This document shows positions 1,461 through 29,001 of a stretch of 32,401 nucleotides of DNA, piece after piece. A program made the position numbers and the translations under genes. Below the pieces are notes generated by a model. The model was given only the letters and a program-made list of their open reading frames with translations, was not told the DNA's origin and made no database searches. The stretch lies in NCBI GenBank assembly GCA_023663285.1, contig JAMPHT010000036.1, positions 1 through 32,401 of the forward strand, in the 5' to 3' direction. The first letter of the stretch is position 1, and the number at the start of each line of letters is the position of its first letter. The stretch is from Bacillota bacterium. Lineage in GTDB: Bacteria; Bacillota; Clostridia; Lachnospirales; Lachnospiraceae.

Positions 1461-1489
1461 TTGACAAATTGACCTACCGGTACTATGAT
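1461..1489 (+). promoter_or_regulatory. Main promoter of the beta-glucan operon
   Basis: TTGACA (1461-1466), a 17-base spacer, and TATGAT (1484-1489) give a near-consensus sigma-A promoter. Transcription would begin near 1496, leaving a leader of about 220 bases before the first ATG at 1720. This is the only strong promoter I see before the operon. The stretch 1369-1719 otherwise holds two palindromic operator-like sites and no convincing gene; a 101-codon open frame there (1331-1636) runs across the terminator and promoter and is judged spurious. Confidence 0.8.
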
Positions 1490-1719: not shown

Positions 1720-3480
1720 ATGAAAGCAAAGAAAGTATTGGGACTGCTTCTCTCTGTTGCCATGGTAGCCGGAATGATGACCGGATGCGGCAGCGGCGAT
1801 AACGGCGACTCCTCGAATGGGGGGGGTAATGTGCAGGACAGCCAGCAGACAAACAACGGCGGCTCTACCGGGGGATCGACCGGCGGGGATTCTGCGGGCG
1901 GAGAAAACAGCGGCGGAGAAACCGCTAACACCGCGCCCTTTTACCTTACGCTGGACCCGGCGGTATCCGGAGAGATCGACGTTATGTGCTGGTCAGGCGA
2001 CAGTGTTTATCATGAAGACATTGGCCATCAGGACATTGCGCCTGAAGATCTGACCACACAGAATTACGCTATGCTCTATGCTATGGCAAAGAAGTTCAAT
2101 GAGATCTATCCTAATATCAAGATCAATCTGTATGCGAAGGCTGACGACCCCAACGGCAATGATACCACATGGGATCAGGAATTGGAGAATTATAAGGCTG
2201 AGCATGGTAAGTATCCAGACATTTATGCGTCCACTATGCTGTCAGATGATACAGCTAAGGGCATGGTGGCTGACCTGTCCGTATATTCGGACGATCCGCT
2301 GTATCAGTCCTTCAATACTTCCCTGATGGAAAAGATGAACTACTACGGCTTCCAGGCAGGACTGCCTCAGTTCATGCAGCCCTGGGGCGTATATGTGAAC
2401 AAGGAACTGGCTGAGGATAACAATATCGATGTTCCCGATCCCGACTGGGACATTGATGAGTATACGGATTTTGTGACCTCTGCTGATAATACCAATTTCT
2501 GGGGACTGATTTACGGCAGCGCGACCCAGTTTATCCAGACAGGAACGGATACTGTGGTGAAGGCTATGAACGACGGGACCGAGGTCAATATGGCGTCCGA
2601 TCAGGTAATGAGTCTGTTGGATTATATCCCCAGGTGGTCCGAGTATGAAATCTGGACCAAGAACGGCGAAGGCGCTGTGGATGCAGCTATTATGGATGAC
2701 GGCTGGTGGTGGGGGTATCGCTTCTTCTGCCGCAACTATTGTCTGGCCTATGACGGAGACCCCTGGATGATGAATACGGCGGCAATGCCTCAGAATGCGG
2801 ACGGCACATGGCCTACCAACGCAGTTGAGTCCGGTGACTGGGACATTTATCCCAGACCTGCAACAGACTACAAGGGCAATACCGTAGGCATCTGTATCGA
2901 CCCCATGGCGATCCACAACTATGCTATGGACGACGGTGATCCCGCATGGAGCGACGCGGAGAAGTCACAGATGGATCTGGCTTATGCCTTCGGCTCCTAC
3001 TGGTGCGGCGCTACCGAGGCTATGCAGGCGAGAGCTGACCAGCAGTGGAACAATGCAGGCGTTATGCAGAGCTGCCTGAACGACTCCTTCCCTCTGGTGA
3101 CAGGCGATGCCTTCGACGAGCAGATGAAGATATGGTATTCCGTGGAGACACACACTCGCTACGGTGACGCGGATAAGATGCCCGGCTTCCAGTATGTGGT
3201 ACAGCTCTGGGAGGATGGTCAGATCTGGGATGTATCCGACAAGTGCTACCCCTGGTATGTATATGAGGACGGCGCCAGAAAAGAGTGCGTCTATGAGTGG
3301 CTGAACCTGACAAATGTAGATGTTGTGGGCGTTTCCGTGACGGATGCAAGCTGGCTGGATACCGTAAAGGCAAATCTGCCTGAGTGGAACAAGAAGATGA
3401 ATGAGAGACTCGCGGAGGCACAGAACTCTCTGAAGGAAGGCTTAAAGACCTACTATGGATTTACCGACGCTGATTTTTGA
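1720..3480 (+). CDS. Extracellular solute-binding lipoprotein (family 1 SBP) of a sugar ABC importer
   Basis: A lipoprotein signal (basic MKAKK, hydrophobic core, lipobox MTGC with Cys23) is followed by a Gly/Ser/Asn-rich tether of about 45 residues and then a large sugar-type binding domain (residues about 80-586). The domain is rich in Trp, Tyr and Asp (for example DGWWWGYRFF near residues 327-336), as expected for binding carbohydrate chains through stacking. At 586 residues it is longer than usual family 1 SBPs (about 420-450), which fits a long oligosaccharide ligand. The start is set by GGAGGA a few bases before ATG. It is the first gene of the operon and is separated from the rest by a hairpin that probably lets it be made in excess. 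The beta-glucan ligand is inferred from the downstream enzymes. Confidence 0.85.
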   Translation: MKAKKVLGLLLSVAMVAGMMTGCGSGDNGDSSNGGGNVQDSQQTNNGGSTGGSTGGDSAGGENSGGETANTAPFYLTLDPAVSGEIDVMCWSGDSVYHEDIGHQDIAPEDLTTQNYAMLYAMAKKFNEIYPNIKINLYAKADDPNGNDTTWDQELENYKAEHGKYPDIYASTMLSDDTAKGMVADLSVYSDDPLYQSFNTSLMEKMNYYGFQAGLPQFMQPWGVYVNKELAEDNNIDVPDPDWDIDEYTDFVTSADNTNFWGLIYGSATQFIQTGTDTVVKAMNDGTEVNMASDQVMSLLDYIPRWSEYEIWTKNGEGAVDAAIMDDGWWWGYRFFCRNYCLAYDGDPWMMNTAAMPQNADGTWPTNAVESGDWDIYPRPATDYKGNTVGICIDPMAIHNYAMDDGDPAWSDAEKSQMDLAYAFGSYWCGATEAMQARADQQWNNAGVMQSCLNDSFPLVTGDAFDEQMKIWYSVETHTRYGDADKMPGFQYVVQLWEDGQIWDVSDKCYPWYVYEDGARKECVYEWLNLTNVDVVGVSVTDASWLDTVKANLPEWNKKMNERLAEAQNSLKEGLKTYYGFTDADF

Positions 3481-3506
3481 CCCGGTAGTCTGATGATATA
3501 ACAGGA

Positions 3507-3557
3507 AGGGCTTATTATTGGCGACACAGGGTGTTTGAAATAATAAGCCCTCTTTTT
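3507..3557 (+). terminator. Intercistronic hairpin (partial terminator or mRNA stabiliser)
   Basis: AGGGCTTATTATT (3507-3519) pairs with AATAATAAGCCCT (3539-3551), 13 bp. The loop can pair further (ACAC/GTGT), and CTTTTT follows at 3552-3557. It lies between the first binding-protein gene and the rest of the operon, without a new promoter that I can see. This is the usual place for a leaky terminator or 3' stabiliser that raises binding-protein mRNA above permease mRNA. Confidence 0.75.
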
Positions 3558-3574
3558 GAAAGAGGAGCACGCTC

Positions 3575-6500
3575 ATGAAGTCGAAAAAGACAGGGATTTT
3601 CAGAAAAATTATCATAACCGCTGCCGCGGCGGCAGTGTGCGTCGGCGGCGTCTATCTGATCTTCAATATGAACCATGCGGAGTACGTGGAGGATGTCAGC
3701 CCTGAGGAGTTGAGGCAGGCTTATGAGCTTTTGTCCGGTTCTCTCGTCTCCTCGGATTATATGTATACGGATTATCTGAAATATCTTGACGTGGGATATG
3801 GCGAGGGAAGCTATACCGCTTCTCCAGAGCAGGGAGAAGTAAAGGGCTTCGAGGCCGGGCAGGAGCTGCCCGCCTATGAGGGAGATGCGGTGGTGCTGGA
3901 TTATGAGCAGACTGCGGAATATAGAGTAAATGTGGATAAAACGGGAGTGTATTACCTGGCGGTGGATTATCTCTCCGCAGGCAATTCCTACCTTGATTAT
4001 ACAGTGGATGTGGCCTTGAACGGGGAAGCGCAGTACCAGGAGTGGAAAACGGTGGAGCTCTCCCTGTACTGGAAGGACGCAGTGGAGGAATACATGGTGG
4101 ACAGATACGGGGACGAGATCGCGCCCACCCAGGAGCGGCTGAACCGGTGGAGCCATACATACCTTTACAATAATACCTATTCATCCACCCACCCCCTGTA
4201 CATGACGCTGGAGGCGGGGGAGAATGTGATCACCCTGACCAACCGTTCCAATGACGGTCTGGCCCTGGGGGCTCTTTATGTGGAAACGCCTGTGGAGGAC
4301 TGCCCTTCCTATGAGGAATATGCCGCCCGGTATGCGGGCGCGGCGGTGGCAGGCAGGGGCGGTATGATAGCGATCGGGGCCACGGACTACACGGTGAAAA
4401 ATTCGGCGGAGATCATCTACCAGTCCACGGCCAATCCGGCTATGACGCCCTATGACGCAGAATATAAGAAGCTGAACACTCTTTCCTGGACCAAACCGGG
4501 AAATGAGATCACCTATGAATTCGGCGTACAGAAGGAAGGGCTTTATAAGCTGGGCTTCCATTATATGAACGATAAAGAAGAATTCAACTCCTATGAGAGC
4601 ATAGCCATTGACGGCAAGGTGCCTTTTCAGGAGCTTAAGTGTTATGCTTTTCCCTACAGTGACGGGGGCTGGGCCAATGAAGTGCTCTCTGACGCAGGCG
4701 GCGATCCCTATTATATTTATCTGACTGCGGGACCTCATACGCTCACCATCAAGGCGGAGATGGAGCCGGTGATCGAGGCATGGCGCTATGGACAGCTGAT
4801 TGCGGAGCACGCCACACAGTTTTCCCTGGACATCAAGAAGATATCGGGGCAGGATGCGGATAAATACAGGACCTGGAAAATGACCCAGTACATACCTGAG
4901 ATCCCCGAATACCTGGACGCTTATATGACCCTGATCCAACATATCCGCTATCTGCTGCAGCATGAGTCGGAGTACGGCATCAACGGCGCGCTGCTTTCCT
5001 ATCTGGATAAGGCGGAGGCGTTTATTGAGGAGATGGCGGAGTATCCTGATGAGATCGCTCTTTATACCAACAGCCTTACCGGTGCGGACAATTCCGTGCT
5101 GGTGGCGGTGAGCAAGTTCACTTCCTCCATTATGAACATAAATTTTTCCCTGGATATGATCTACGCATTCGGGGAGGATGAACTGCCGAAGGCGAAGGCA
5201 GGGCTTTTTGAGAGCATAGGAAACGGATTTGCCACGGTTTACTATTCCTTCACCTCGGAGAAGTACCGGACCGATTCCCCGGACGATGAGGAACTGACCA
5301 TATGGGTGTCCAGGGCGCTGACCCACGTGGATCTGCTGCAGAAGCTTGCGGATACGGAATTCACGCCAAAGACAGGCATCAAGGTCAAGATCTCGGTGAT
5401 GCCGGACGCTAACAAGCTGACCCTGGCCTCGGCGGCGGATCAGACGCCGGACATTGCCCTGGGACTGATTTCCCATATGCCCTTCGACTTAGCCTGCCGT
5501 GACGCCCTGTATGATCTGACCCAATTTGACGATTTCTGGGAGACTGCAAACCGTTTTGTGGCGGGCGCGCTGGTACCCTATACCTACAATGAGGGTGTTT
5601 ACGCCATACCGGAGACTCTGGATTTTGACGCGGTGATCTACCGCACGGATATTTTTGAAAGCTTAGGGCTGGAGGTGCCGGACACCTGGGAGGAGCTGAT
5701 CGATCTGCTTCCCAGCCTGCAGCGCTACGGGATGAACTTTTACCACAATATTTCCTCCGGTGTGGGCTATAAGTGGTTTTACCAGACCACGCCTCTGATA
5801 TTCCAGAACGGCGGCAGCCTGTATCTGGAGAACGGCACGGCCACAGCCATTGATTCGCCGGAATCCGTGAAGGGCTTAAAGCAGCTGGGAGATCTGTTTG
5901 TGGCATATTCGCTGGATACCCAGGTGCAGGAATTTTTCAACTCCTTCCGGTATTCCGTACTGCCCATAGGCATTGTGGACTCCAACAACTACGTGCTGAT
6001 CAAGAACGGCGCAACGGAGCTGGAGGGACAATGGGCGCTGGCTCCTTACCTGGGGACGGTGCAGGAGGACGGGACCATCAACCGGAACTTTATTGCCAAC
6101 GGTACGGGCGGGGTCATCTTCGCGGACACACAGATGCCTGAGGAGGCGTGGGAGTTCATGAAGTGGTGGACGGACACGGAGACCCAGGTGGAATACACCT
6201 ACACCCTGCGTTCTACCTACGGCGATACCTACTTCTGGCTGCCCTCCAATGTGGAGGCGCTGGAGCAGGCGCCCATCGACCAGGACGATAAGGAGATCAT
6301 TCTGGACATGGTGCAGTGGCTCAGGGATGTGCCCAGGACGCCGGGACAGTATCTGCTGGAGCGCTCCATCTCGGATATCTGGAACACTATGGTGTTCGAC
6401 GGCACCTCGGCACAGGTGGCGGCGGATGAGAAGGTGATCGCCATCAACCGCGAGATCAAAAAGAAGATGCAGGAGCTTGGCTTCTATGACGAAGACGGAA

Positions 6501-6595
6501 ATATGATGAAGAGCTATATTATCCGGGATGCGGACTGGATACAGGAGCAGATGGATAAAGCGAGGGAAGGAGGTGAGCATGCGTGCAGCAGGTGA
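3575..6595 (+). CDS. Membrane-anchored fusion of two beta-sandwich (CBM-like) domains and a solute-binding domain
   Basis: The 1006-residue protein starts after AAAGAGGAGC with a basic end and one hydrophobic helix (residues about 9-31). No good lipobox is present, so an uncleaved anchor is likely. Residues about 100-240 and 270-425 look like two beta-sandwich modules, with alternating strands and phrases such as [22 protein letters not shown] and [20 protein letters not shown]-like turns and [11 protein letters not shown], as in CBM-type lectin domains. A helical linker follows (about 430-565). From about 572 ([20 protein letters not shown]) to 960 it is a family 1 sugar-binding SBP domain, including [10 protein letters not shown] and the usual [19 protein letters not shown]. 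It sits directly before two permeases and overlaps the first by 13 bases. I infer a surface receptor that grips a glucan chain and hands it to a permease. The CBM label is from fold character, not a family match. Confidence 0.75.
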
Positions 6596-7494
6596 AGAAG
6601 AGGAAAAAATTCAATAAAGAGGACGGAAGAGCTTATCTGATGCTGCTGCCTTACATCCTTCTGTTCTCCACATTTATTCTGGTGCCGGTGCTGATCGCGG
6701 TGTATCTGTCCTTTACCTATTTTGACGTGATCAACGCGCCCACCTTTACGGGACTGCTGAACTATATCACCCTGTTTACCCAGGATGAGGTGTTTTTGAA
6801 ATATGTACTGCCAAACACCTTCCTGTACGCCCTGGTCGTGGGACCGGGGGGATATGTGCTGTCCTTCCTGCTGGCATGGATGCTGGCCCAGATACAGCCC
6901 ATACCCAGGACCATACTGGCGCTGTGTATCTACACCCCCTCCATGCTGGGTCAGGTGTTTATCGGCGTTATCTGGAAAACTATTTTCTCCGGCGACCAGT
7001 CCGGCTGGGTGAACAGTCTGCTGCTGCAGTGGGGGCTCATCGACACACCCATTCAGTTCCTGCTGACAAAGGATTATTTCATGCTGATCATGATCGTCGT
7101 CTCCCTGTGGTCCGCCATGGGCATCGGATTCCTGGCCATGATCTCAGGTATCCTGAATATCGATCAGGAGCTGTATGAGGCGGCCTATGTGGATGGCTTA
7201 AGGAACCGTTTTCAGGAGATCATTTACATCACCGTGCCCTCCATGAAGCCCCAGATGCTGTTCGGAGCGGTCATGGCTATCGTAAACGCCTTTAATATGG
7301 GCTGGATCGGCGTTACCCTAAGCGGCGCCAATCCCACGCCGGAGTACTCCGGCCAGCTGATCACCAACCATATAGACGACTACGGCTTTATCCGGTATGA
7401 GATGGGATACGCCGCCGCTGTCTCCGTGGTGCTTCTGCTGATCGTGTATGCCTTTAACGTAGTGGCTCACCGGCTGTTCGGTGAGAAGGATTGA
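6583..7494 (+). CDS. ABC sugar importer permease A (MalF/LacF type)
   Basis: A GTG start at 6583 is placed by AAGGAGGTGA at 6567-6576 and overlaps the preceding stop. The 303-residue protein has a short basic N-terminus (QQVKKRKKF) and six hydrophobic segments beginning with [20 protein letters not shown]. The EAA loop reads [19 protein letters not shown], the site that contacts the ATPase. It forms the inner membrane channel with the next gene. Members of this class typically pair with a shared MsmK/MsmX-type ATPase, and none is encoded here. The substrate is inferred from context to be beta-glucan oligosaccharides. Confidence 0.9.
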
Positions 7495-7508
7495 GAGGAG
7501 GGAGCGAA

Positions 7509-8402
7509 ATGAGTAAGAAGAGAAAACAGAAACGCGGCAACTTTCAGGGCTCCCGCATCAATCCCAGGCATTTTTCAAAGGGGCAGATCAAATTTTACAT
7601 CATCCTGGTGCCCCTGTCCCTTTTCATGATCCTGCCTGTCATTATGCTGGTGAACCGGGCGTTCATGCCTTTAGGCGAGCTGTTTGCCTTCCCGCCCCAT
7701 ATTATTGCCCGCAACCCTACCACCAACAACTTCAAGAGTCTGTTCGCCCTGTCCAGCACCACAGGGGTGCCCATGCTGCGATACCTGTTGAACTCGGTCA
7801 TCGTGACGGTGCTGACGGTGCTGCTGAACCTGGTGATCACCATATTGGGGGCCTATACCTTTGCCAAAAAGAATTTTAAGGGCAAGGCGGTGCTGTTTGA
7901 GATCAACCAGCTGGCGCTGATGTTTGTGCCTACCGCAGTAGCCATTTCCAGATACCTGGTGATCGTGAAGCTGAACCTGACGGATACCTGGCTGGTACAC
8001 GTGCTGCCGCTGGCGGCTATGCCTGTAGGCTTGTTCCTGGTAAAGCAGTTTACGGATCAGATACCGGACGCGCTGATCGAAGCGGCGGTCATGGACGGCG
8101 CAAGGGAGCTGACCATTGTGCGCAAGATCATTGTGCCCCTGATCAGGCCGGCGCTGGCTACCTCTATCGTGCTGACCTTCCAGCAGGTCTGGATGGCGGT
8201 GGAGGCGTCCAACAATTATGTGAACAATGACACCATGCGGACGCTGGCATATTACCTGAACTCCCTGTCCACCAACAATACCGTTGCGGCGGCAGGCATG
8301 ACGGCGGCGGCTTCGGTGCTCTTATTCATACCGAACCTGCTGATCTTTATCTGTATGCAGTCTCAGGTCATGAATACCATGAGCCATTCCGGAATCAAGT
8401 AG
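7509..8402 (+). CDS. ABC sugar importer permease B (MalG/LacG type)
   Basis: ATG at 7509 follows GAGGAGGGAG, so I prefer it to the in-frame TTG at 7491. The 297-residue protein has a long basic N-terminal tail, six membrane segments and an EAA loop (EAAVMDGARELTIVRKIIV). It pairs with permease A, whose stop is 12 bases upstream. The RINPRHFSKGQIKFY stretch before the first membrane helix is the usual cytosolic entry of the MalG class. Confidence 0.9.
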   Translation: MSKKRKQKRGNFQGSRINPRHFSKGQIKFYIILVPLSLFMILPVIMLVNRAFMPLGELFAFPPHIIARNPTTNNFKSLFALSSTTGVPMLRYLLNSVIVTVLTVLLNLVITILGAYTFAKKNFKGKAVLFEINQLALMFVPTAVAISRYLVIVKLNLTDTWLVHVLPLAAMPVGLFLVKQFTDQIPDALIEAAVMDGARELTIVRKIIVPLIRPALATSIVLTFQQVWMAVEASNNYVNNDTMRTLAYYLNSLSTNNTVAAAGMTAAASVLLFIPNLLIFICMQSQVMNTMSHSGIK

Positions 8403-8414
8403 GGAGGACGAGTG

Positions 8415-10457
8415 ATGAGAAAACACGGAAAAATAAGGCGGGGCTTTTTTCTACTGGCTGTTGCCTGCCTGGTACTGCAGCTTCCCATGCAGGCGAGCGC
8501 AAACCAGGCCACATCCTACACCTATGCGGCGGATGAAAACGGTTACTGGGTGCGGACTCAGGACGCTTATCTGCCGGATAAGACGGTGACGGAGCTGGGG
8601 CTTTCCAGCCCGGAGGATCTGTTCATCGACGAGAACAATATGCTCTACATAGCGGACACGGGCAACCGGCGTATCCTGAAATATGACATTGCCAGGGGAG
8701 AAGTGGCGGCGGAGCTGACCAGCAGCGAGTTCACGGCCCCCAGAGGCGTCTATGTGACGGAGGAAGGGGATATTTATGTGGCGGACTCCGGCGCAAAGGC
8801 GGTTCTGATATTTGATAAGGAGTTTGAGCTGACAGGTAAGCTGGGAAGGCCCGATTCGCCGATCTTTGCAGATACCAATTACGAGCCAAAGCGCGTGGCG
8901 GTGGACGGCGGCGGGAATGTATACCTTATCGGAGAGGGCGTTTACAACGGTGTGATCCAGCTGGCAAAGACAGGGGAGTTTCTGGGGTACTTTGCGGTAA
9001 ACGACGCGGACCTGACCTTCTCCCAGAGACTGCAGCAGCTGCTGTTTACCAGGGCCCAGCTGGCGAACCTGGTAGACATCAATCCCACGGTATTCACCAA
9101 TGTATTCGTGGACAGAAGCGGGATCGTGTATACGGCTACCAGCGGCACCAACAGGAACGGTATGAAAAAGCACAGCACCAACGGCGGCAATATGTTCAAG
9201 TCCGACGTGTGGTCCTACGATAGTCTGACAGATCTGTATGTGGATGGCAGCGGGCTGATCTACACCTGCTCCTCAGAGGGGTATGTGAATATTTACTCCA
9301 AGAGCGGCGAGGAAATATTCAGCTTTGGCTCCTATGTCACTACCGTTGATATTTCGGGACTGTTTACCAGCCTGCCCTCCATTGCGGTGGATATGGACGG
9401 CAATATCTGGGCGGTGGACGGCAGCAAGGGCTATCTGCAGTCTTTCAAGCCTACGGAATACGCGCAGATGGTTTACGGCGCAATGGAGCTGTATGAGGAA
9501 GGCCGCTATGAGGAGGCCATGGAGCAGTGGAACCAGGTGCTGAAGCTGAACCAGATGTCCATTCTGGCCCATAACGGTGTGGGCAAGGCATATCTGCACG
9601 CGGAGGATTACGCGGCGTCTCTGGAGCATTTTGAGGTGGCCAACAATAAGGACTTTTATTCCCAGGCATACTGGGAGGTGCGCAACAAGTGGCTTCAAAG
9701 ATGGCTGGGCCCTATCCTGGGCGTTGTGATCGCTCTGCTTGTGATAAGAAAGCTGGTGCAGGTCATTGACCGGAAAAAGGGCGGACGCCTGGCGGCGGCA
9801 AAAAAGCGGACAAACGAGAAGGCGAAGAGTCTGCCGGTGCTCAAGGACCTTATCTATGCCCTGAAAACGCCCAGGCGCCCCATTGATCATTATTATGAGA
9901 TCCGTAAGTACAGGCAGGGATCCGTGGTGGCGGCCACGGTGATATATGCGCTGTTCTTCCTGGATTTCATGGCGTTTAAGACCCTGAAAGGATTTATCTA
10001 CCAGACCATGAAGGTGGAGGACATGGATATCGGTTCCATTGTGCTGGGCTTCTTCATTCTGCTGGGGCTGTTCATTATCTGCAATTACCTGGTGACCAGC
10101 ATCAACGACGGCGACGGAACCTTTAAGCAGATCTATATGATCCCGGCCTACGGATTGATGCCCGCCATGATCTCGCTGCTTATCGTGACCCTGGTTTCCT
10201 ATGTATTGACCTACAATGAGTCGTTCCTGCTGACCATCGTGCTTATCATCGGGATCACCTGGAGCGTGATCACCATATTCATGGGATTGCAGACGGTACA
10301 TGATTATACCTTTGGTGAGACGGTGAAAAGTATTGTCCTCACAGTGGTGTTTATGATTATCGTGGCGGTCATCGGAATCATTATCTCCATTATGTGGGAT
10401 AGCCTGTATTCCTTCCTCGCCGCAGTCGGAAAGGAGATGATCCAGAATGTCATATAA
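8415..10457 (+). CDS. NHL beta-propeller / TPR / Yip1-type membrane protein
   Basis: A signal peptide (residues 1-29, ending QASA) precedes a segment of NHL-type repeats (about 60-345) with recurring phrases such as FIDENNMLYIADTGNRRILKY, VYVTEEGDIYVADSG, and AVDMDGNIWAVDGSKGYL. Residues about 350-420 make TPR-like helices (AMELYEEGRYEEAMEQWNQV). One membrane helix follows (about 431-450), then a basic cytosolic stretch, then a Yip1-like domain with about five membrane segments (about 490-680). ATG at 8415 follows GGGAGG; GTG at 8412 is an alternative. The propeller and TPR are predicted outside, the Yip1 part in the membrane. It is flanked by permeases and a DUF5696 gene and overlaps the latter by 11 bases, so it likely serves the importers as a scaffold or sensor. 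The function is not established. Confidence 0.8.
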   Translation: MRKHGKIRRGFFLLAVACLVLQLPMQASANQATSYTYAADENGYWVRTQDAYLPDKTVTELGLSSPEDLFIDENNMLYIADTGNRRILKYDIARGEVAAELTSSEFTAPRGVYVTEEGDIYVADSGAKAVLIFDKEFELTGKLGRPDSPIFADTNYEPKRVAVDGGGNVYLIGEGVYNGVIQLAKTGEFLGYFAVNDADLTFSQRLQQLLFTRAQLANLVDINPTVFTNVFVDRSGIVYTATSGTNRNGMKKHSTNGGNMFKSDVWSYDSLTDLYVDGSGLIYTCSSEGYVNIYSKSGEEIFSFGSYVTTVDISGLFTSLPSIAVDMDGNIWAVDGSKGYLQSFKPTEYAQMVYGAMELYEEGRYEEAMEQWNQVLKLNQMSILAHNGVGKAYLHAEDYAASLEHFEVANNKDFYSQAYWEVRNKWLQRWLGPILGVVIALLVIRKLVQVIDRKKGGRLAAAKKRTNEKAKSLPVLKDLIYALKTPRRPIDHYYEIRKYRQGSVVAATVIYALFFLDFMAFKTLKGFIYQTMKVEDMDIGSIVLGFFILLGLFIICNYLVTSINDGDGTFKQIYMIPAYGLMPAMISLLIVTLVSYVLTYNESFLLTIVLIIGITWSVITIFMGLQTVHDYTFGETVKSIVLTVVFMIIVAVIGIIISIMWDSLYSFLAAVGKEMIQNVI

Positions 10458-12870
10458 GAAAGGAAAGAGAACGCTTCAAAGCCTGACCGCGCTTGCCCTT
10501 GCGTTAGGTCTCGGATCGACTTCCATCAGCGCTTTAGCTTATGTGCCCACCAACAGAGATACAAAGACAGCTCCCGAAAAGGCGGAATACACGCCGGAGG
10601 AGTACTCGGATTATGAGCTCCTCTCAGAGACGGGAACAGTGAAATATTACTGGCGGGAGGACCGGGACATTCTGGCTATCGTTGACAAGGAGACCGGCTT
10701 CTGTATCAAGACCGGTGCGGATCTGCCCTTTTCCGGCGCTGTCAAGGATGCGGTGAAGGATCTGGAGAAGGCGGGCGCGGGAGCAGAGGAGATCCTTGCG
10801 GCGGCGGAAAGCTACGCGGACGACCTGAACACCACCTATGTGGGGATCGCCAACTCTCTGATCACCATAGAGTACTATGAAAGCGACAAGATCAAATATC
10901 TGTCCTCCGCTTCCGAGGAGGACGTGGAATCTGTTCTTACCAGGGTGGAGGATGGAAAATACTGTCTGGATATCGACTTTACCGGGATCGATGTTCAAAT
11001 GAAGGTATATCTCATTCTGAAGGAGGACAGCATCGACTATTACATTCCCTGCGGCGAAATGGGCGGAACCGGCCTGAACAAGCTGGCAGCGGTGGACATT
11101 TCTCCCTTTCTGGGAGCCAGCGGCGGCCGGATGAATGTGATGGACCCGGATACCCTGGAGTGGGAGACGGTAGACAGCTACCGGGTCCCCGGTTATGTGC
11201 TGGTGCCGGATGGCAGCGGCAGCCTGATCCGGTTTGCGGACAATACCTCCACCTTCAATTCTTATGTGGGGGATGTGTACGGCAAGGACTATGCCACCGA
11301 GACTTATTATAACTTCTCTTATTACGACGACGTGCCTGTGAAGGATCCTGTGATGCCGGTGTTCGGCATTGCCCACGGCAGCGGTCAGATGGCCTTTGCA
11401 GCCTGGGCCAACCAGGGAGCGGAGTATATGGAGATCATCGTCAATCCCGACGGTACCAGAGGGACCACCTACACCTGGGCATATCCCCGCTTTGAGTTGA
11501 ACATCAACTATTACCAGCTGTATGACGAAAAGGGCAGCGGCTTCTTCAAGCAGATGGATGAGATCTATCAGTACGATATCGACATGACCTACGCTTTCCT
11601 GTTCGGAGACGGCAGCGACGGCACGCCTTCGGCGGATTACGTGGGTATGGCGAGAGTCTACAGGGAGTATCTGATCGCGGAGGGAGAGCTGACGCCCCTG
11701 GAAAATGTGACGGGAGATATTCCCATACGTCTGGATTTCATCATGGCGGACTCCAAGAGCGGCATTGTGGGCAATGACCAGGTGGAGGTGACCACCGTGG
11801 AGGACGTGGAGGAGATCCTGAACCAGGTGACGGCAGGCGGCATCACCAATGTGAACTCCGGCCTCATCGGCTGGCAGAAGAAGGGAGAAAGCCTTGCCAA
11901 GCCCTATAAAATGTCCTTTTCCGGCTCCATAGGAAGCAAGGCAGAGTTTAAAAAGCTGATCGAGAGCTTCGGGGAGCGGGGGATAGACATTTCCCTTTCC
12001 AGAGATGTGATCACCATCAATAAAAGCATGATGGGCTACTATAACACGGCGGTGAGATGTATCAGCAACTGGTACTTGAGCATCGACAAGGAGGCGATCC
12101 TGCCGGAGAATGTGCCCACCAGCCTGTTCAGCTATGCCACGCCGGTGAAGTCCGCCGGCTGGATCGGCACCCTGGCAGACAAGACGTCAGGCTTTTCGAC
12201 AAGTCTGACCCTGGCGGAGATGCCCCATGTGCTGACCTCCAACTGGAACAGGGACGGTGTGGTGACCAGCCTGACGGATGCGGTGGAGCTGTACCGGAAT
12301 ACCTTGAGCGGGATAAATCAGGAAATGCTGCTGAACCTGGAGAATCCACATATGTATCTCTGGAAATATACAGACAGGTATCTGCAGATCCCCGTAGGCA
12401 GTTCTCAGTATATTTTTGAGACGGATACGGTGCCCTTTCTGGAGATGGTGCTTCACGGGACCATGGAGCTGTACGCGCCCTATGCCAACTTCTCCTTCTA
12501 CACCCAGGACAGTATCCTGCGGATGATAGATTACAATATCTCACCCTCCTTTATCCTGTCAAAGGAGCCGTCCTACAAGCTGGCGGACACCTTTTCAGCC
12601 AACTTCTACTCCACGGAGTATTCTCTGTATGAGGAGCTGATCCGGCAGGTGTACGGGACCATCAACGAGGTGTTGAGCCAGGTACAGGGTTTTGAATGGA
12701 CATACAGATATGTGCCTGAGGACGGAGTGGTGATCAACACCTATGAAAAGGGCGGTGAGACCCGATATGTGATCGTCAACTATACAGAGAATGAAGTGAC
12801 TTATCAGGGAACTGCCGTTGCGCCGGAAAGCGCGGCGGTGGTGAGAAAAGGAGGTGTGAACGATGGCTGA
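10447..12870 (+). CDS. DUF5696-type exported protein
   Basis: An 807-residue protein with a signal peptide (residues 1-31, cleavage after SALA) and no other obvious membrane helix. The family signature, as I remember it, is YVLVPDGSGSLIRF (residues 250-263) followed by an aromatic-rich stretch with VMPVFGIAHGSGQMAFAAW. The second half has features of a barrel-like glycosidase-related fold (for example GLIGWQKKG, NLENPHMYLWKYTDRYLQIP), but I cannot point to catalytic residues. Start: AAAGGAGATGATCCAGA before ATG, overlapping the Yip1 gene. In Firmicutes such genes commonly sit beside sugar ABC permeases. I infer a glycan-handling partner on the outer face of the membrane, possibly an enzyme. 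Confidence 0.7.
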   Translation: MSYKKGKRTLQSLTALALALGLGSTSISALAYVPTNRDTKTAPEKAEYTPEEYSDYELLSETGTVKYYWREDRDILAIVDKETGFCIKTGADLPFSGAVKDAVKDLEKAGAGAEEILAAAESYADDLNTTYVGIANSLITIEYYESDKIKYLSSASEEDVESVLTRVEDGKYCLDIDFTGIDVQMKVYLILKEDSIDYYIPCGEMGGTGLNKLAAVDISPFLGASGGRMNVMDPDTLEWETVDSYRVPGYVLVPDGSGSLIRFADNTSTFNSYVGDVYGKDYATETYYNFSYYDDVPVKDPVMPVFGIAHGSGQMAFAAWANQGAEYMEIIVNPDGTRGTTYTWAYPRFELNINYYQLYDEKGSGFFKQMDEIYQYDIDMTYAFLFGDGSDGTPSADYVGMARVYREYLIAEGELTPLENVTGDIPIRLDFIMADSKSGIVGNDQVEVTTVEDVEEILNQVTAGGITNVNSGLIGWQKKGESLAKPYKMSFSGSIGSKAEFKKLIESFGERGIDISLSRDVITINKSMMGYYNTAVRCISNWYLSIDKEAILPENVPTSLFSYATPVKSAGWIGTLADKTSGFSTSLTLAEMPHVLTSNWNRDGVVTSLTDAVELYRNTLSGINQEMLLNLENPHMYLWKYTDRYLQIPVGSSQYIFETDTVPFLEMVLHGTMELYAPYANFSFYTQDSILRMIDYNISPSFILSKEPSYKLADTFSANFYSTEYSLYEELIRQVYGTINEVLSQVQGFEWTYRYVPEDGVVINTYEKGGETRYVIVNYTENEVTYQGTAVAPESAAVVRKGGVNDG

Positions 12871-13822
12871 AAAGACGGTGAAGAAAACAGCTTCGACAAA
12901 GGCAGTCAGGGAAAAGAAGCCCCGTAAAAGCGGGCGCACCAAAAGCTATGAGAAGCGTCAGAATCGCTTAGGCTACGGGTTCATGCTTCCCTGGATCATA
13001 GGGTTCGTGATTTTTACGCTGATTCCCTTTGTAGCCACCATTGTCTTAAGCTTTTGCAATGTGAGCACCAATGTCACGGGTTATGACATCTCCTTTGCAG
13101 GGTGGAGCAATTATTATACGGCTTTCTTCCGAAATACGGAGTTTGTTCCCGCGCTGCTGGCGTTTATCGCCATGGTGGTGCCTTATACCTTTGTGATCAT
13201 TATCGTGTCCTTCTTTCTGGCGTATCTGCTCAATAAGATACAGGTGGGGAAAGGGCTTATGAGGACCATTTATTTCCTGCCGGTCATCATTATGTCCGGC
13301 CCGGTCATGAGTCAGATCCTGGACCAGGCGGATGAGGCGGTACAGATGGCCCAGGGGACAGGCAGCGGATACGAGGGGGTCTTTATCCTGGAGATGATCC
13401 GCAGCTACTCCCCGCAGATCGCAAGGTTCATGGGGGATATATTTGACCAGCTGACTATGATCCTGTGGTTTACCGGCATCCCCATCGTGTTGTTTGTCAG
13501 CGGGCTGCAGCGTATCAACGCCTCGCTGTATGAGGCGGCAAAGATCGATATGGCCAATGAGTGGCAGATCCTCTGGAAGATCACCATACCCATGATCAAG
13601 CCCACGGCGCTGGTGGCTACCATCTTTACCATCGCCCAGCTGGGAACCTATGATACCAGCGCAATCTATTCGCTGATCAAGACGGCTACGGGCAATACCA
13701 ACGGAGGATTCGGGTTTGCAGCCACCTATTCCTGGATCTACTGTATCATTGTTCTGATCATCATCGGGCTGGGATGTCTGATATTTAAGGAGAGGCAGCC
13801 AAGGAGGCGTGACATATGGTAA
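12863..13822 (+). CDS. ABC sugar importer permease C (MalF type), second pair
   Basis: ATG at 12863 lies just inside the DUF5696 gene end and follows GGAGGTGTG. The 319-residue protein has a Lys/Arg-rich cytosolic tail of about 45 residues, then six membrane segments (first: YGFMLPWIIGFVIFTLIPFV), and the EAA loop EAAKIDMANEWQILWKITI. An extra loop near residues 150-180 (QADEAVQMAQGTGSGYEG) is a longer periplasmic-side segment than in permease A. It forms a second importer with the next gene. Which of the two binding proteins it pairs with cannot be told from sequence alone. Confidence 0.88.
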   Translation: MAEKTVKKTASTKAVREKKPRKSGRTKSYEKRQNRLGYGFMLPWIIGFVIFTLIPFVATIVLSFCNVSTNVTGYDISFAGWSNYYTAFFRNTEFVPALLAFIAMVVPYTFVIIIVSFFLAYLLNKIQVGKGLMRTIYFLPVIIMSGPVMSQILDQADEAVQMAQGTGSGYEGVFILEMIRSYSPQIARFMGDIFDQLTMILWFTGIPIVLFVSGLQRINASLYEAAKIDMANEWQILWKITIPMIKPTALVATIFTIAQLGTYDTSAIYSLIKTATGNTNGGFGFAATYSWIYCIIVLIIIGLGCLIFKERQPRRRDIW

Positions 13823-14760
13823 AAACGGCAAAAAATAAAAACAGGGTAAAGGTAAAGCGCGACTTTAAGTGGTGGCGTAACCGGATCGCGAAAATTGCTA
13901 TTTACTTTGTGTTGATCTGCGTGGGATTTGTGTATCTGGAGCCTATTTTTGAGATCATTGCGAAAACCTTTATGTCTGCGGAAGATATTATTGATCCTTC
14001 CGTCAACTGGCTGCCCAGGAGCCTTTCCTTAAACAATCTGAAGGTGGCGTCCAATGTGCTTAAGGTTGGTCCTACCCTGCGGAACACTATTCTCTGGTCG
14101 GGAGGCATGGCGGTGGCGCAGACCATTGTGTCCGCTCTTACGGGCTTTGCCCTGTCCAGATATGATTTTAAATTCAAGAGGTTCTGGTTCGTCATGATCG
14201 TGCTGGCATTTATCATTCCCACGCCGGTGACCATGGTTCCCAGGCTGATGATGTTCGTCACCGCCCAGGAGGCTACGGCGATCCAGCTCATCGGGACGGC
14301 TCTTCCACAGGCGTTGATGGCGTTGCTGGGACAGGGAGTGTACTCCACGGTGCTGATCCTGGTGTTCTACACCTCCTTTAACATGATTCCCAGAGTGCTG
14401 GACGAGGCGGCTCAGATCGACGGCGCATCCGCCATGAAGGTATTCTGGTTCATCGTGGTGAAGATGTCGGCCACCACTATGCTGGTGGTGTTCCTGTTCT
14501 CCTTTGTGTGGAACTGGAACGAGACCTATATCACAGGTACGTTGATGAGAAACAATATCGAGCTGCTGCCTGCAAAGCTGAATATGTTCAACAGTGAGTT
14601 TGACAGCCTGGTATCCGCCCAGGGCGGGGCGTTTAAGCTGAATGAGGCATATAAGATGGCGGCTACCCTGATCTCCATCTCGCCGCTGCTGATCCTGTAT
14701 GCTTTCGTGCAGAAGCAGTTCATTCAGGGCATTGAAAATACGGGAATCACAGGCGAATAG
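13816..14760 (+). CDS. ABC sugar importer permease D (MalG type), second pair
   Basis: ATG at 13816 overlaps the previous stop by 7 bases and follows AAGGAGGCG. The 314-residue protein has a basic tail (KTAKNKNRVKVKRDFKWWRNR), six membrane segments and the EAA loop EAAQIDGASAMKVFWFIVV. It closes the transport block. The next gene lies almost 300 bases away behind a hairpin-rich spacer. Overlapping starts and stops throughout 10447-14760 argue for one translated unit with the DUF5696 gene. Confidence 0.88.
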   Translation: MVKTAKNKNRVKVKRDFKWWRNRIAKIAIYFVLICVGFVYLEPIFEIIAKTFMSAEDIIDPSVNWLPRSLSLNNLKVASNVLKVGPTLRNTILWSGGMAVAQTIVSALTGFALSRYDFKFKRFWFVMIVLAFIIPTPVTMVPRLMMFVTAQEATAIQLIGTALPQALMALLGQGVYSTVLILVFYTSFNMIPRVLDEAAQIDGASAMKVFWFIVVKMSATTMLVVFLFSFVWNWNETYITGTLMRNNIELLPAKLNMFNSEFDSLVSAQGGAFKLNEAYKMAATLISISPLLILYAFVQKQFIQGIENTGITGE

Positions 14761-14965: not shown

Positions 14966-15052
14966 GTTTGGCGGCGGCTTATTGATTGTTTGTGCTGCCA
15001 GACAAAGAATTTGTGCGGTATCAGCGGTATAGATGGCTTGAGAGGAGAGGGC

Positions 15053-16150
15053 ATGAGAAAGAGAAGGACGGGAATAGGGGCTTCAACGGTGGCAGTGCTG
15101 GCGCTGGCGGTCGTGCTTGCAGGCTGCGGCGCACCCGCAGGATCAGGGACGGAGAGTGGGCAGGCGTCCGGCGGGAGCGAGCAGAGCGGAGAAAGTGTTC
15201 AAAACGGCGAAGCAGCCCAGGGCGATGGGATCGCCCAGGGCGTTGGAACACAGGACCCGGAGGACGGAGCGGCCGGAGACGGTATAGAGAAGAACGAAAG
15301 CGGCTATCGTGTGGGCAGTTCACTGTCCGGCGCTTATGTCGATCCCAGTGAAAAGCCCCCGGAGAAAGAGCTGAAGGCGGTGGGCTTTGAGTATGACAGG
15401 GACAGCCTGACCTATGAGCTGGTCTGGTCCGACGAGTTTGACTATGAGGGGGAACCGGATCCGGAGAAGTGGAGCTATGAGACCGGTGCAGGCGGCTGGG
15501 GCAACCATGAGCTGCAGAATTACACCAAAGGCGATAATGTGACGGTGGCGGAGGGCGTGATGACCATTGAACTGCGGACAGAGGCGGACGGGCAGTATAC
15601 CTCCACCAGGCTGGTCAGCCGGAATAAGGGTGACTGGACCTACTGTAAGGTGGAAGCGTCCTTAAAGCTGCCGTCCGGGCTGGGCACCTGGCCCGCATTC
15701 TGGATGATGCCCACGGATTCCGTATACGGCGCCTGGCCAAAATCCGGTGAGATCGACATTATGGAGCACGTGGGCTACGATCAGGATGTGATCGTGGAGA
15801 CGGTACACACGGAAAAGTACCATGGAGGCCAGGGAAAGGGAAAGAGCTTTCCCACGGAGGGCGTCAGCGAGGAGTTCCATACCTATGGGGTGGAATGGCT
15901 GCCTGACAAAATGATCTTCAGCATCGACGGGGCGGAGAAGTTTACCTACGATCCCTTCAGCTACAGCGGCAGCCCTACCAGTGAGATCTGGCCCTTTGAC
16001 AGGGATTTTTACCTGATATTCAACCTTGCCTTCGGCGGGGACTGGGGCGGTGCAAGAGGAACGGACGATTCTTATTTTCCGGTGGAATATGAGGTGGATT
16101 ATGTGCGGGTATACCAGAGCCCGGAGATCGCAGCGCTGGCAGAAGAATAG
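15053..16150 (+). CDS. Exported GH16 endo-beta-1,3-glucanase (laminarinase-like) lipoprotein
   Basis: I take ATG at 15053, preceded by GAGGAGAGG, over an upstream TTG-type frame. The 365-residue product has a lipoprotein signal with lipobox LAGC (Cys25), a low-complexity Gly/Ser/Glu/Gln tether (about 26-95), and a GH16 domain (about 115-360). The catalytic motif GEIDIMEH carries nucleophile Glu233, Asp235 and acid/base Glu238. The extra Met in ExDxxE is the bulged form seen in laminarinase-type GH16 enzymes rather than lichenases. The domain opening VWSDEFDYEGEPDPEKW and closing VDYVRVYQS are typical. It is attached to the cell surface and would make oligosaccharides for the importers encoded upstream. 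Polymer specificity (beta-1,3 versus mixed-linkage) is inferred. Confidence 0.9.
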   Translation: MRKRRTGIGASTVAVLALAVVLAGCGAPAGSGTESGQASGGSEQSGESVQNGEAAQGDGIAQGVGTQDPEDGAAGDGIEKNESGYRVGSSLSGAYVDPSEKPPEKELKAVGFEYDRDSLTYELVWSDEFDYEGEPDPEKWSYETGAGGWGNHELQNYTKGDNVTVAEGVMTIELRTEADGQYTSTRLVSRNKGDWTYCKVEASLKLPSGLGTWPAFWMMPTDSVYGAWPKSGEIDIMEHVGYDQDVIVETVHTEKYHGGQGKGKSFPTEGVSEEFHTYGVEWLPDKMIFSIDGAEKFTYDPFSYSGSPTSEIWPFDRDFYLIFNLAFGGDWGGARGTDDSYFPVEYEVDYVRVYQSPEIAALAEE

Positions 16151-16206: not shown

Positions 16207-19200
16207 GTGAGCAATTACACATTAGAGGGCGATAAGTTTATTATTGAAAATTATACAGAGGTTCCGGCGTTTTCCAGCTTTCTGCCCGGACTTTCCGGGG
16301 TGAAGGGCATTCCGGTGTGGTCCTTCTACACCAACAGGGGACAGGGGATCAACAGCTTCGGCATCCATCATAAGGGGAATGCCATGATGGAGTTCAATCC
16401 TGCCAACACGGCATATGAGAGTACGCCCATAAAGGGCTTTCGCACCTTTGTCAGGGCGGACGGGGAATATTTTGAACCCTTCTGTACCTATGATCCCGGA
16501 GCAAAGCGCCGGATGGAGATCGAAAAGAATGTGCTGACCATTTCCGAGGAAAGCCACGGACTGAAAATAACAGTGTGTTATATCATTCTGCCGGGAGAAA
16601 ATATCGGCGCTCTGGTGCGCAGGGTGCAGGTGGAGAACCTGGCGGGCGGCCCGCGGGAGCTGGAGCTTCTGGACGGTATGCCCCAGATCATTCCCTACGG
16701 GATACAGAACGGCCAGTATAAGGAAATGTCCAATCTGTTCAAAAGCTGGGCGGACATCAAAAACATTGAAAACAGAGCGCCTCTGTACACTATGAGGGCG
16801 TCCAGCGACGATTCCGCGGAGGTCTCGGAGATAGAGGGCGGCTATTTCTATCTTGCCGTGGCAGGCGGAAAGCTGCAGCAGGTCATCTATGACAAAAATG
16901 TGATTTTTGACTATGACGATTCCATGGTGAACCCGGTGACCTTCAGAGAACAGGGATTGGAGGGTGTGCTGGCAAGACGGCAGTGCTTTGCCAACAAGGT
17001 GCCCTGTGGGTTTATTCCTGTGAAGATCCTTCTTAAGGGCGGGGAGAAGTATGAGCTTGCGGCATATGCGGGATTTGCTTCTTCCATAGATCTGCTGAAC
17101 GAAAAGGCGAAAAGCTTTTGCGCAGAAGGGTACGCAGAGCGTAAGACGAAGGAAGCAAGGGATCTGGTAGATTCCTTTACAAAGGACGTGTGGACCAGAT
17201 CCGCCGATCCTCTGTTTGACAAGTACATGGAGCAGTGCTATCTGGACAATTTCCTCAGGGGAGGCATTCCCTTTGTCATGGGTAAAGGGGACCACAAGGC
17301 CGTGGTGCATTTATTCAGCCGGAAACACGGAGACCCGGAGCGGGATTACAATTTCTTTTCCATTGCGGGAGAGTATTATTCCCAGGGCAACGGCAACTAT
17401 CGGGACGTCTGCCAGAACCGCAGGAACGACGTGTTCTTCAAGCCTGCCATCGAGGATTTCAATGTGCGGCATTTTTACAGCCTGGTGCAGATGGACGGCT
17501 ACAATCCGTTGGAGATCAGGCCCTGTACCTTTGTTATCCCGGCGGAGAACAGCAGGGCGGCCGCAGAGCTTACGGCGGAGTATGTGGAAGATCCGGAAGG
17601 CAGGATCGCCGCTATTTTGAATAAACCTTTTACCCCCGGACAGATCACCAATGTCATTGCAGCCCATCAGCTGAAGGTGACGGGGGATGAGGAAGAACTG
17701 GTAAACGGTCTCATCGGACTCAGCGCGGAGCAGATAGAAGCAGGATTCGGGGAAGGCTACTGGAGCGACCACTGGGATTATGATTTGGATCTGGTGGAAA
17801 ATTATCTGCTGATATACCCGGATAAACGGGAGGAGCTTCTGTTCGGAGAGGAAAGTTACGGATTTTATGACAGCCCAGGCATTGTAAGGCCAAGATGTGA
17901 CACATATGTCATAAGCAAAGGAAAGGTACGGCAGTATGGCTCCATGTATCATTGCAAGGAGAAGGAAGCCAGACCGGGCTTTGTGGGAAACGGCACCAAC
18001 TGGCTGAAGGACAGGCAGGGAAATAAGGTGACCACCACTCTGTTCGGAAAGATGATGACCCTGGCGGTGAATAAGTTTGCCCTGCTGGATTCCTTTGGTA
18101 TGGGAATCGAGATGGAGGGCGGAAAGCCGGGCTGGAATGACGCTATGAACGGTCTGCCGGGATTGTTCGGCAGCGGGATGCCGGAGACGTTGGAGCTGAA
18201 GCGTCTGGTTGATTTCCTGCTGGAAGAGGCAGCAGTTCATTCTCCGGCGGAGGAGGTCAGGCTGCCCAGGGAGCTTGCCGCTTTCATGCGAGACATCTAT
18301 GGGCTTTTGCAGGAGCAGCTTTCCGACTTTGACTATTGGGATAAGACGGCGGCGCGCAGGGAGAGCTTCCGGGAGGAGATCAAATTTGAAGTAAGCGGAA
18401 ACCTGACGGCTCTTTCTTTCAGGGAGATCAGAGAGACTTTAAGCGCATTTTCCGAGAAGCTGGACAGAGCGGTTGCAAAAGCCATGGAATACGGCAGGGG
18501 AATCATGCCCACCTATTTCACCTTTGAGGTGTCGGAATTCGAGGAGGTGCTAAATGGGGACGGAACGCCCAGGATCAGCCCTTACGGACTGCCCAGCGCC
18601 AGGGTGAAAAGGTTCAGCCTTGTACAGGTGCCTTATTTTCTGGAGGGGCCGGCCAGGATGCTTTCCGCCTGCGGCAGACAGGACCGGGAGCAGGCGGCGG
18701 AAATGTGTGCCAGGATCAAAGAGACGGATATGTATGACAGAAAGCTGAAGATGTATAAGACCTCTGAGTCCATTGAGGGAATCTCCATGGAGAACGGCAG
18801 AGTCCGGGCATTTACGCCCGGCTGGCTGGAGAGGGAGAGCGTTTTCCTGCACATGGAGTACAAATACTTCCTGGGTATGCTGAAGGCCGGCCTGTACGAC
18901 AGGTTTTACGAGGCTGTGAATGATGCGCTGATTCCCTATCAGAAGCCGGAGGTCTACGGACGGAGTATCCTGGAGAATTCCTCCTTCCTTGCTTCCAGCG
19001 CCAATCCGGACCCTGCTGTCCACGGACAGGGCTTTGTGGCCAGGCTTTCCGGCTCCACCGTGGAGATGCTCTCCATGTGGCTGGGGATGTTCCTGGGAGA
19101 AGGAGGCTTTACCTGTGAGGAAGAGAAGCTTAAGTTTACTCTTGCGCCCAGGCTGTCCTGCGAAATGTTTGACGATAAGAAAGAGGCGTCCTTCATGCTG

Positions 19201-19398
19201 CTGGGAAGCTGCCGGGTGACCTACCATAATCAGACCGGAAAGAATACATACGGCGAGGACGGAGCAAAGGTCTGCCGCATGGAGCTGCATGAGGCGGACG
19301 GCAGCAGCCATAAGGCGGAGGGCTGCGCACTGGATGAGAAGTGGGCGTTAAGGCTAAGAGAGGGCGGAATCTGCAGGATCGACGCATATCTTGTCTAA
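16207..19398 (+). CDS. Clan GH-Q beta-glucan phosphorylase, GH161-like (beta-1,3-oligoglucan phosphorylase candidate)
   Basis: GTG at 16207 is fixed by AAAAGGAGGTCAAG. The 1063-residue protein lacks a signal peptide and is cytoplasmic. It has an N-terminal beta-sandwich region (about 1-320) and a large helical barrel. The candidate catalytic Asp is Asp645 in GKPGWNDAMNGLPG, which corresponds in position and style to the Asp of inverting GH94/GH149/GH161 phosphorylases. Other signatures include YLDNFLRGGIPF, GSMYHCKEKEARPGF and SRKHGDPERDYNFF. Length and motifs fit the long phosphorylases GH149/GH161 better than GH94. It would split oligomers with phosphate to alpha-glucose 1-phosphate. Being next to GH16, GH94 and GH30 genes favours beta-1,3-glucan. 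The family number is my inference, since I could not compare sequences. Confidence 0.75.
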   Translation: MSNYTLEGDKFIIENYTEVPAFSSFLPGLSGVKGIPVWSFYTNRGQGINSFGIHHKGNAMMEFNPANTAYESTPIKGFRTFVRADGEYFEPFCTYDPGAKRRMEIEKNVLTISEESHGLKITVCYIILPGENIGALVRRVQVENLAGGPRELELLDGMPQIIPYGIQNGQYKEMSNLFKSWADIKNIENRAPLYTMRASSDDSAEVSEIEGGYFYLAVAGGKLQQVIYDKNVIFDYDDSMVNPVTFREQGLEGVLARRQCFANKVPCGFIPVKILLKGGEKYELAAYAGFASSIDLLNEKAKSFCAEGYAERKTKEARDLVDSFTKDVWTRSADPLFDKYMEQCYLDNFLRGGIPFVMGKGDHKAVVHLFSRKHGDPERDYNFFSIAGEYYSQGNGNYRDVCQNRRNDVFFKPAIEDFNVRHFYSLVQMDGYNPLEIRPCTFVIPAENSRAAAELTAEYVEDPEGRIAAILNKPFTPGQITNVIAAHQLKVTGDEEELVNGLIGLSAEQIEAGFGEGYWSDHWDYDLDLVENYLLIYPDKREELLFGEESYGFYDSPGIVRPRCDTYVISKGKVRQYGSMYHCKEKEARPGFVGNGTNWLKDRQGNKVTTTLFGKMMTLAVNKFALLDSFGMGIEMEGGKPGWNDAMNGLPGLFGSGMPETLELKRLVDFLLEEAAVHSPAEEVRLPRELAAFMRDIYGLLQEQLSDFDYWDKTAARRESFREEIKFEVSGNLTALSFREIRETLSAFSEKLDRAVAKAMEYGRGIMPTYFTFEVSEFEEVLNGDGTPRISPYGLPSARVKRFSLVQVPYFLEGPARMLSACGRQDREQAAEMCARIKETDMYDRKLKMYKTSESIEGISMENGRVRAFTPGWLERESVFLHMEYKYFLGMLKAGLYDRFYEAVNDALIPYQKPEVYGRSILENSSFLASSANPDPAVHGQGFVARLSGSTVEMLSMWLGMFLGEGGFTCEEEKLKFTLAPRLSCEMFDDKKEASFMLLGSCRVTYHNQTGKNTYGEDGAKVCRMELHEADGSSHKAEGCALDEKWALRLREGGICRIDAYLV

Positions 19399-19589: not shown

Positions 19590-19615
19590 GCCCGAAGGGC
19601 ATCATGGAGGGGAAA

Positions 19616-28972: not shown

Positions 28973-29001
28973 AGACTTTGTCGAAGGAAGGAGGTAAAAG
29001 T

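Follow-up and report, generated by a model that had tools for sequence, protein, structure and literature searches.

Paired permease modules with a propeller-Yip1 protein and DUF5696: a recurrent cassette in Bacillota with a proposed role in glycan uptake

Introduction

Why would a bacterium encode two sugar-type permease pairs in a single run of genes, and place among them large proteins that are not transporters? The uptake of large glycans by Gram-positive bacteria is usually explained by one solute-binding protein (SBP) and one permease pair. The question is raised by a 32,401-nucleotide stretch of DNA, here called the window, from a Lachnospiraceae member of the Bacillota (GenBank assembly GCA_023663285.1, contig JAMPHT010000036.1, forward strand). 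Its positions 1720–14760 carry, all co-directional and densely spaced, genes for an SBP, a second and larger SBP with a proposed carbohydrate-binding module (CBM-SBP), four permeases (A1, A2, B1 and B2), a protein with an NHL propeller, a TPR region and a Yip1 domain (NHL-TPR-Yip1), and a protein of the DUF5696 family. From 3575 onward neighbouring genes overlap by 4–13 bases or are separated by 9 bases, and 94 bases separate the first SBP gene from the next. A preliminary description, made from these letters alone, saw here a candidate for an undescribed machine for capturing beta-glucan, in which two importers were interleaved with three large non-transporter proteins. That there are two binding proteins, four permeases and no ATPase, mostly in overlapping order, is borne out by open reading frames (ORFs) at the places given and by Pfam and phmmer; the three large extra proteins are actually two, the CBM-SBP having been counted twice.

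On balance we lean towards a generic, conserved glycan-uptake cassette of two modules that acts as one surface machine. Module A would consist of the membrane-tethered CBM-SBP and permeases A1 and A2, and module B of permeases B1 and B2, the DUF5696 protein with its likeness to GH129, and an NHL-propeller/TPR protein linked to a membrane protein of the Yip1 family, often with a separate SBP. The appeal of the cassette is that two co-occurring permease pairs with two dedicated accessory proteins, present in up to 17 copies per genome as judged by Yip1 count, would amount to a widespread uptake machine, whose accessory proteins are reduced by annotation to 'YIP1 family protein' and 'DUF5696 domain-containing protein'. 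For the unnamed Pfam family DUF5696 it offers a possible function.

A conserved gene order

ORFs of at least 100 amino acids in 140 loci, all selected for holding DUF5696, were labelled with profiles built from the window proteins. The full order, CBM-SBP, A1, A2, NHL-TPR with Yip1, DUF5696, B1 and B2, was found in 109 of them, exactly so in 108 (Yip1 as a separate gene in 86 and fused in 22), with L174 adding an extra A2 call. The halves are swapped in six loci, module B standing ahead of module A, and within the fetched DNA module B is alone in 14, among which L166 stops at a contig edge beside NHL and others extend just 1.4–3 kb on one side. The other 11 incomplete loci are L186, without B2, L160, which has module B with A2 about 6.5 kb distant, and L098, L118, L140–L142, L153, L161, L163 and L191, mostly at contig or fetch ends. 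Median gaps between neighbours in the cassette are about −20 to +20 bases over the 140 loci.

Is the order a matter of close kinship? Of at least 567 relatives, mostly Paenibacillus, the best 80 are among the 140 loci, and part of these duplicate loci of a phylum sample. The phylum sample itself, free of the Paenibacillus bias, gave 60 loci from 37 genomes: 34 full, six swapped, 14 with module B only and six other. Its full order occurs in 13 of the 15 families that bear DUF5696; the remaining two families have the swapped arrangement. The expectation of an order reaching beyond close relatives, across Firmicutes and beside different glycosidases, has held well. A chance neighbourhood, also considered, is rejected by the 140-locus order counts together with the spread over 15 families. 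Matching order is seen in the NCBI annotation of plasmids of Butyrivibrio fibrisolvens (pNP243) and Paenibacillus cellulosilyticus, in which the CBM-SBP was recognised just from its length and from being annotated as an SBP.

One glycan or many?

The host genome has five copies of the cassette, four of which adjoin recognisably different carbohydrate enzymes. Downstream of the window copy are GH161 and GH94 enzymes matching solved structures at E below 1e-240, and this copy therefore most likely serves beta-1,3-glucan. Three other copies adjoin CBM65/GH130, GH53 and GH35/GH30_2 proteins, respectively, and for the remaining one, on C31, the two neighbours scanned are an SBP and an unmatched protein. 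As copies in one genome stand beside different carbohydrate enzymes, the cassette appears to be generic and the window copy to be its beta-1,3-glucan version.

The wider neighbourhood was sampled by picking 253 same-strand ORFs, keeping the nearest 177 and scanning 173; one long ORF and three others cut at locus ends were omitted. Families were counted in two lists, as the top 25 of 72 and the top 25 of 64. The commonest among the matches so listed are SBP_bac_1 (26 + 18) and GH26 (8 + 2), followed by LacI-type binding domains (3 + 4) and by GH10 and GH43 (4 each), and the families also include GH30, GH2, GH38, GH130, GH35, GH28, GH53, alginate lyases and pectate lyases. Judged by the substrates that the Pfam names imply, the enzyme families next to the cassette would act on mannan, galactan, xylan, pectin and alginate. 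Specificity for beta-glucan, the substrate proposed at the outset, is accordingly given up: the glycosidase neighbours are varied both in the host genome and in other loci.

DUF5696 and the propeller-Yip1 protein

What might the two accessory proteins do? The DUF5696 profile matches chains of GH129 glycosidases (8rzk, 1.7e-10; 5opq, 2.1e-10; 5wzn, 3.5e-8), and DUF5696 is on this account likely to be a barrel of the GH129 kind. The GH129 Pfam model PF11308 gave no match among 16 DUF5696 members at E 0.1, where ten other families matched, and the catalytic residues of GH129 presumably fall beyond the part aligned with DUF5696. A sequence search for GH129 found no match in 149 genomes, nor in its controls, and is uninformative on absence. 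In the set of 71 members left after removing copies more than 62% identical, three acidic columns stand out (D599 in 66, D659 in 62 and E695 in 69, by window numbering), and the D/D/E triad is complete in 58.

Such conservation invites the thought that DUF5696 proteins form an undescribed, GH129-like family of active glycosidases that work outside the cytoplasm and trim chains before import, the rest being an importer with its own enzyme. The GH129 matches and the three acidic columns are what one would then expect; however, the window copy has N599, T659 and D695, the sole such row of the 71, one and the same family serves loci with differing glycosidases, and known GH129 enzymes, in the accounts drawn upon here, act on alpha linkages, at odds with the beta-glucan enzymes of the window. 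We regard this possibility as unlikely, though it fares as well as any rival. With N/T/D in place, catalysis via the triad is unlikely in the window copy, and binding is the more likely role there.

For the other accessory protein, Yip1 and NHL-TPR are fused in 47 ORFs, and 92 ORFs have Yip1 only. The coexistence of fused and split forms hints, in the manner of a 'Rosetta stone', at contact between the two. Precedent for a Yip1 protein acting on a transporter is provided by YknW, described in the portion of the source drawn upon as modulating assembly of YknXYZ (PMC4887032).

Are the two halves separate importers?

Of the rivals, the next in standing holds that the operon combines two sugar importers of the ordinary sort, which work independently and each serve a different chain length or product, with NHL-Yip1 and DUF5696 doing separate jobs such as glycan hydrolysis or wall binding. 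It is a doubtful reading, though one that all four permeases, which resemble ordinary ATPase-coupled sugar permeases, speak for. Independent importers should occur apart, yet among 398 genomes of the phylum strong DUF5696 was found in 37, CBM-SBP in 40, the Yip1 family in 39 and all three in 37, from 15 families: CBM-SBP is in every one of the 37 DUF5696 genomes. Just three of the 40 CBM-SBP genomes (G080, G104 and G154) are without DUF5696, and in each the CBM-SBP lies on a contig of 3.1–4.3 kb; the two with the Yip1 family and no DUF5696 (G211 and G307) have weak matches near 1e-11. Fisher tests for co-occurrence gave 4.9e-49 and 3.7e-50, values that are too small because the genomes are kin. 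For these counts at most three DUF5696 candidates were scored per genome; the 37 exclude G302 and G325, whose scores of about 26 bits exceed the Pfam cut-off, and seven genomes with matches below it, and the CBM-SBP count excludes five genomes matching the SBP part alone and includes G080 and G103, where a contig end truncates the CBM-SBP.

The halves are nevertheless sometimes unlinked, as independent importers would allow. Module A was found without module B in the 14–16 kb fetched from G062, G135, G101 and G240, and alike genes flank the lone module A in the first three. The stand-alone module A of L193, L195 and L197, in three genomes of one family, has alike flanks with peptidase-like and patatin-like genes, named by eye. 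Copy numbers also differ between the halves: in five of nine genomes counted, Yip1 and CBM-SBP number 10 and 4, 10 and 4, 8 and 4, 10 and 6, and 17 and 10 (the last ten, in G082, including fragments), and in four they are equal. Where module B outnumbers module A, there appear to be B modules that do without an A module of their own, either sharing one or using none. The expansion of module B, to Yip1 copies of 17 (G082) and 10 each (G062, G135 and G040), is seen in genomes of 2.2–3.0 Mb. The earlier idea of two importers with extras needs refining to two co-occurring modules, sometimes unlinked, of which B can outnumber A.

How closely have the halves evolved together? In 51 dereplicated loci holding all eight parts in the fetched piece, patristic distances correlate at 0.77–0.91 between halves and at 0.80–0.94 within them, and those of DUF5696 at 0.90 with A1 and at 0.90 with CBM-SBP, figures that partly reflect species history and come from loci with all parts linked only. 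A four-point test gave one grouping for each of the eight genes: the window copy pairs with that on C31, apart from the three remaining copies in the host genome. The permeases of module A are the least diverged (mean distances: A1 0.95, A2 1.07), as against B1 at 1.83, B2 at 1.76 and DUF5696 at 2.23. As divergence of A1 and A2 is about half that of B1 and B2, the A pair would be the constant, generic motor-like part and the B half the more cargo-adapted one.

Coupling loops and the ATPase

By column counts in 117, 119, 137 and 136 aligned sequences, the cytoplasmic loop that couples a permease to its ATPase is conserved in all four permease families, with the consensus EA[GA]..[DE]G in A1 and E[AVC][AS]..[ED]G in B1, and each window permease has a Pfam match and E-A-A at that loop. 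A coupling loop dead throughout the A1 and B1 families had been suggested by string searches and was ruled out by these column counts. That module B is mainly a sensor, with a permease-like pair, Yip1 and propeller reporting substrate or flux to a regulator and module A as the importer, is improbable: a histidine kinase and response regulator do lie near the cassette in Butyrivibrio, module B is the more variable half and the B loops of the window deviate, but B1 and B2 loops are conserved family-wide, and among the matches listed (the top 25 families per list, for same-strand genes) no regulator family occurs in more than seven of the 173 neighbours.

What, then, powers the permeases? Pfam matched ABC_tran in none of the 19 window ORFs scanned, a genome search with it at E ≤ 1e-20 found nothing on the window's contig, and in the 140 loci the only ORFs combining Walker A and LSGGQ strings, three in number, occur elsewhere in the fetched DNA, none within or next to the cassette. 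In Paenibacillus cellulosilyticus, ugpC is directly upstream of the cassette (L206), and the host genome has a UgpC-type ATPase on another contig, C39 (502 bits against a cut-off of 432). Together these suggest, as the simplest reading, that one shared ATPase of the MsmX/UgpC type serves both pairs.

Several points weigh against a single glycan-importing machine. To the species history behind the tree correlations must be added that the modules, at times unlinked, are also unequal (in G062 ten Yip1 against four CBM-SBP), and a fixed 1:1 complex is hence not general. Downstream of the L206 plasmid copy (NZ_CP054609.1, 79378–105198) are four LLM flavin-dependent oxidoreductases and two SBPs; with oxidoreductases around it in place of glycosidases, glycans may not be the sole cargo. 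The window copy itself is unusual: its B1 loop carries M, a unique residue, in place of the G shared by 136 of 137, its B2 loop carries K (one of the 136) in place of the P shared by 128 of 136, and there is the N/T/D triad. Module B of the window (10447–14760) departs from its family at just these places, the DUF5696 triad and the B1 and B2 coupling loops, and may be a copy working differently or less well, whether diverging or failing.

How the cassette may work

With these reservations, the hypothesis of a surface complex has good circumstantial support: the genes are tightly ordered and co-occur, NHL-TPR and Yip1 exist both fused and split, and YknW offers a precedent by analogy. We infer a physical complex with long chains as its cargo, in which the steps would be as follows. 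A surface enzyme, here the GH16 lipoprotein, would cut beta-1,3-glucan, and CBM-SBP and DUF5696 would keep the glucan chain close to the membrane. NHL-TPR-Yip1 would link both permease pairs and aid assembly, as YknW does for YknXYZ, and both pairs would be powered by the shared MsmX/UgpC-type ATPase encoded elsewhere. Imported oligosaccharides would then be phosphorolysed by GH161 and subsequently GH94.

A bolder version, offered tentatively and with rather less expectation that it is right, is a two-motor polysaccharide importer. NHL-TPR-Yip1 would bridge both pairs into a supercomplex in which a generic, slow-evolving A pair, with CBM-SBP, would pull or thread the chain and a substrate-tuned B pair, with DUF5696, would finish import, one ATPase being shared.

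Features of the window

The features are collected in Table 1. The first SBP matches the solved SBP 22hh at E 4.5e-9 (phmmer), with no Pfam match at E 0.01 and none in NCBIfam; its lipoprotein signal was seen by eye and not flagged by a strict lipobox pattern. The 94-nucleotide gap after its gene folds at −26.6 kcal/mol (z −2.26; four of 200 shuffles equally good). The stem there was not listed by a terminator scan confined to loops of 3–8, and Rfam gave no match at gathering scores. It is possibly a partial terminator, which would allow an excess of SBP over the products of the downstream genes. The promoter match is to be read against the 23 consensus matches found in the region where 13.6 are expected. 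The name CBM-SBP is sound for its SBP domain and weak for its CBM part in the window, where Pfam calls no CBM; among 33 members of the family, Pfam finds CBM_35 in six, CBM_6 in one and Golvesin_C in 13. The Yip1 domain of the window scores 56.3 bits with PF04893 (cut-off 28.6).

Further downstream, 27533–28972 encodes a DUF6055 protein of unknown function (Pfam, 399.8 bits). A LysR-type regulator appears split over two ORFs in different frames, the helix-turn-helix part at 28978–29322 and the ligand part at 29325–29912; either the gene is disrupted or the sequence contains an error.

Table 1. Features of the cassette and of the glucan enzymes beside it, in window coordinates
Feature	Position	Strand	Evidence
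Sigma-70-like promoter match TTGACA-17-TATGAT, ahead of the operon	1461..1489	+	11/12 consensus positions; consensus match alone
SBP, 586 amino acids, lipoprotein-like N-terminus; presumed partner of one permease pair	1720..3480	+	phmmer
RNA stem, 13 base pairs, then CUUUUUG; between first SBP gene and rest of operon	3507..3551	+	Folding
CBM-SBP, 1006 amino acids: hydrophobic N-terminal stretch, CBM35-like region (by family relation), C-terminal SBP domain	3575..6595	+	Pfam SBP_bac_1, residues 586-871
Permease A1	6583..7494	+	Pfam BPD_transp_1
Permease A2	7491..8402	+	Pfam BPD_transp_1
NHL propeller, TPR, one transmembrane segment, Yip1 domain with five hydrophobic stretches (fused form)	8412..10457	+	Pfam NHL, TPR and Yip1
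DUF5696 protein, signal-like N-terminus, distant GH129 relative	10447..12870	+	PF18952, 458.6 bits (curated cut-off 25.6)
Permease B1	12863..13822	+	Pfam BPD_transp_1
Permease B2	13816..14760	+	Pfam BPD_transp_1
GH16 lipoprotein, likely surface endo-beta-1,3-glucanase; true start probably internal	14990..16150	+	Pfam, hydrophobic-stretch scan
GH161 beta-1,3-oligoglucan phosphorylase	16207..19398	+	Match to solved GH161 9qqk, E 2.2e-241
GH94 laminaribiose phosphorylase	19550..22405	+	Match to solved 6ggy, E 6.7e-289
GH30 glycosidase, no hydrophobic stretch, presumed cytoplasmic	23178..24515	+	Pfam

Comparison with known systems

Is the system new? No description of the cassette was found by a targeted search of open-licence PubMed Central (PMC) papers (DUF5696; Yip1 or NHL with transporter terms). 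As far as that literature reaches, the claim of an undescribed system survives for the combination, which is real, recurrent and apparently undescribed in its fixed form, and not for the parts, which are of known kinds.

Importers of the CUT1 class, such as LplABC and those of the YtcQ-YteP-YtcP kind, rely on a shared ATPase of the MsmX/UgpC type. Like them the cassette has an SBP and two permeases with coupling loops, the ATPase gene presumably being elsewhere; unlike them it has two co-inherited permease pairs, the CBM-SBP fusion and the constant partners NHL-TPR-Yip1 and DUF5696. With YknWXYZ of Bacillus it shares a Yip1-family membrane protein alongside an ABC transporter, though that system is presented, in the portion of the paper drawn upon, as an efflux pump of the MacB kind without propeller, TPR or glycan context (PMC4887032). 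To the GH129 glycosidases (NagBb 5wzn, 5opq) there is profile similarity over part of DUF5696, full-length similarity being weak. Beta-1,3-glucan loci with a GH161-GH94 tandem have in common with the window, in the parts of the source relied upon, GH161, GH94, GH16/GH30 and ABC permeases, mostly with no ATPase genes; in the main text of that source 'Yip1' and 'NHL' occur zero times and the paired-importer cassette is not named (PMC6484121).

There remain the Sus-type systems of Bacteroidota. These capture large glycans at the surface and feed them inward. No Pfam family of TonB-dependent transporters or SusD-like proteins was met in the 19 window ORFs scanned, and the likeness to the proposed cassette is one of working, with no homology claimed. 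If the two-motor importer were true, Gram-positive bacteria would have in it their own counterpart to what Sus systems achieve, one that a single genome reuses for many glycans.

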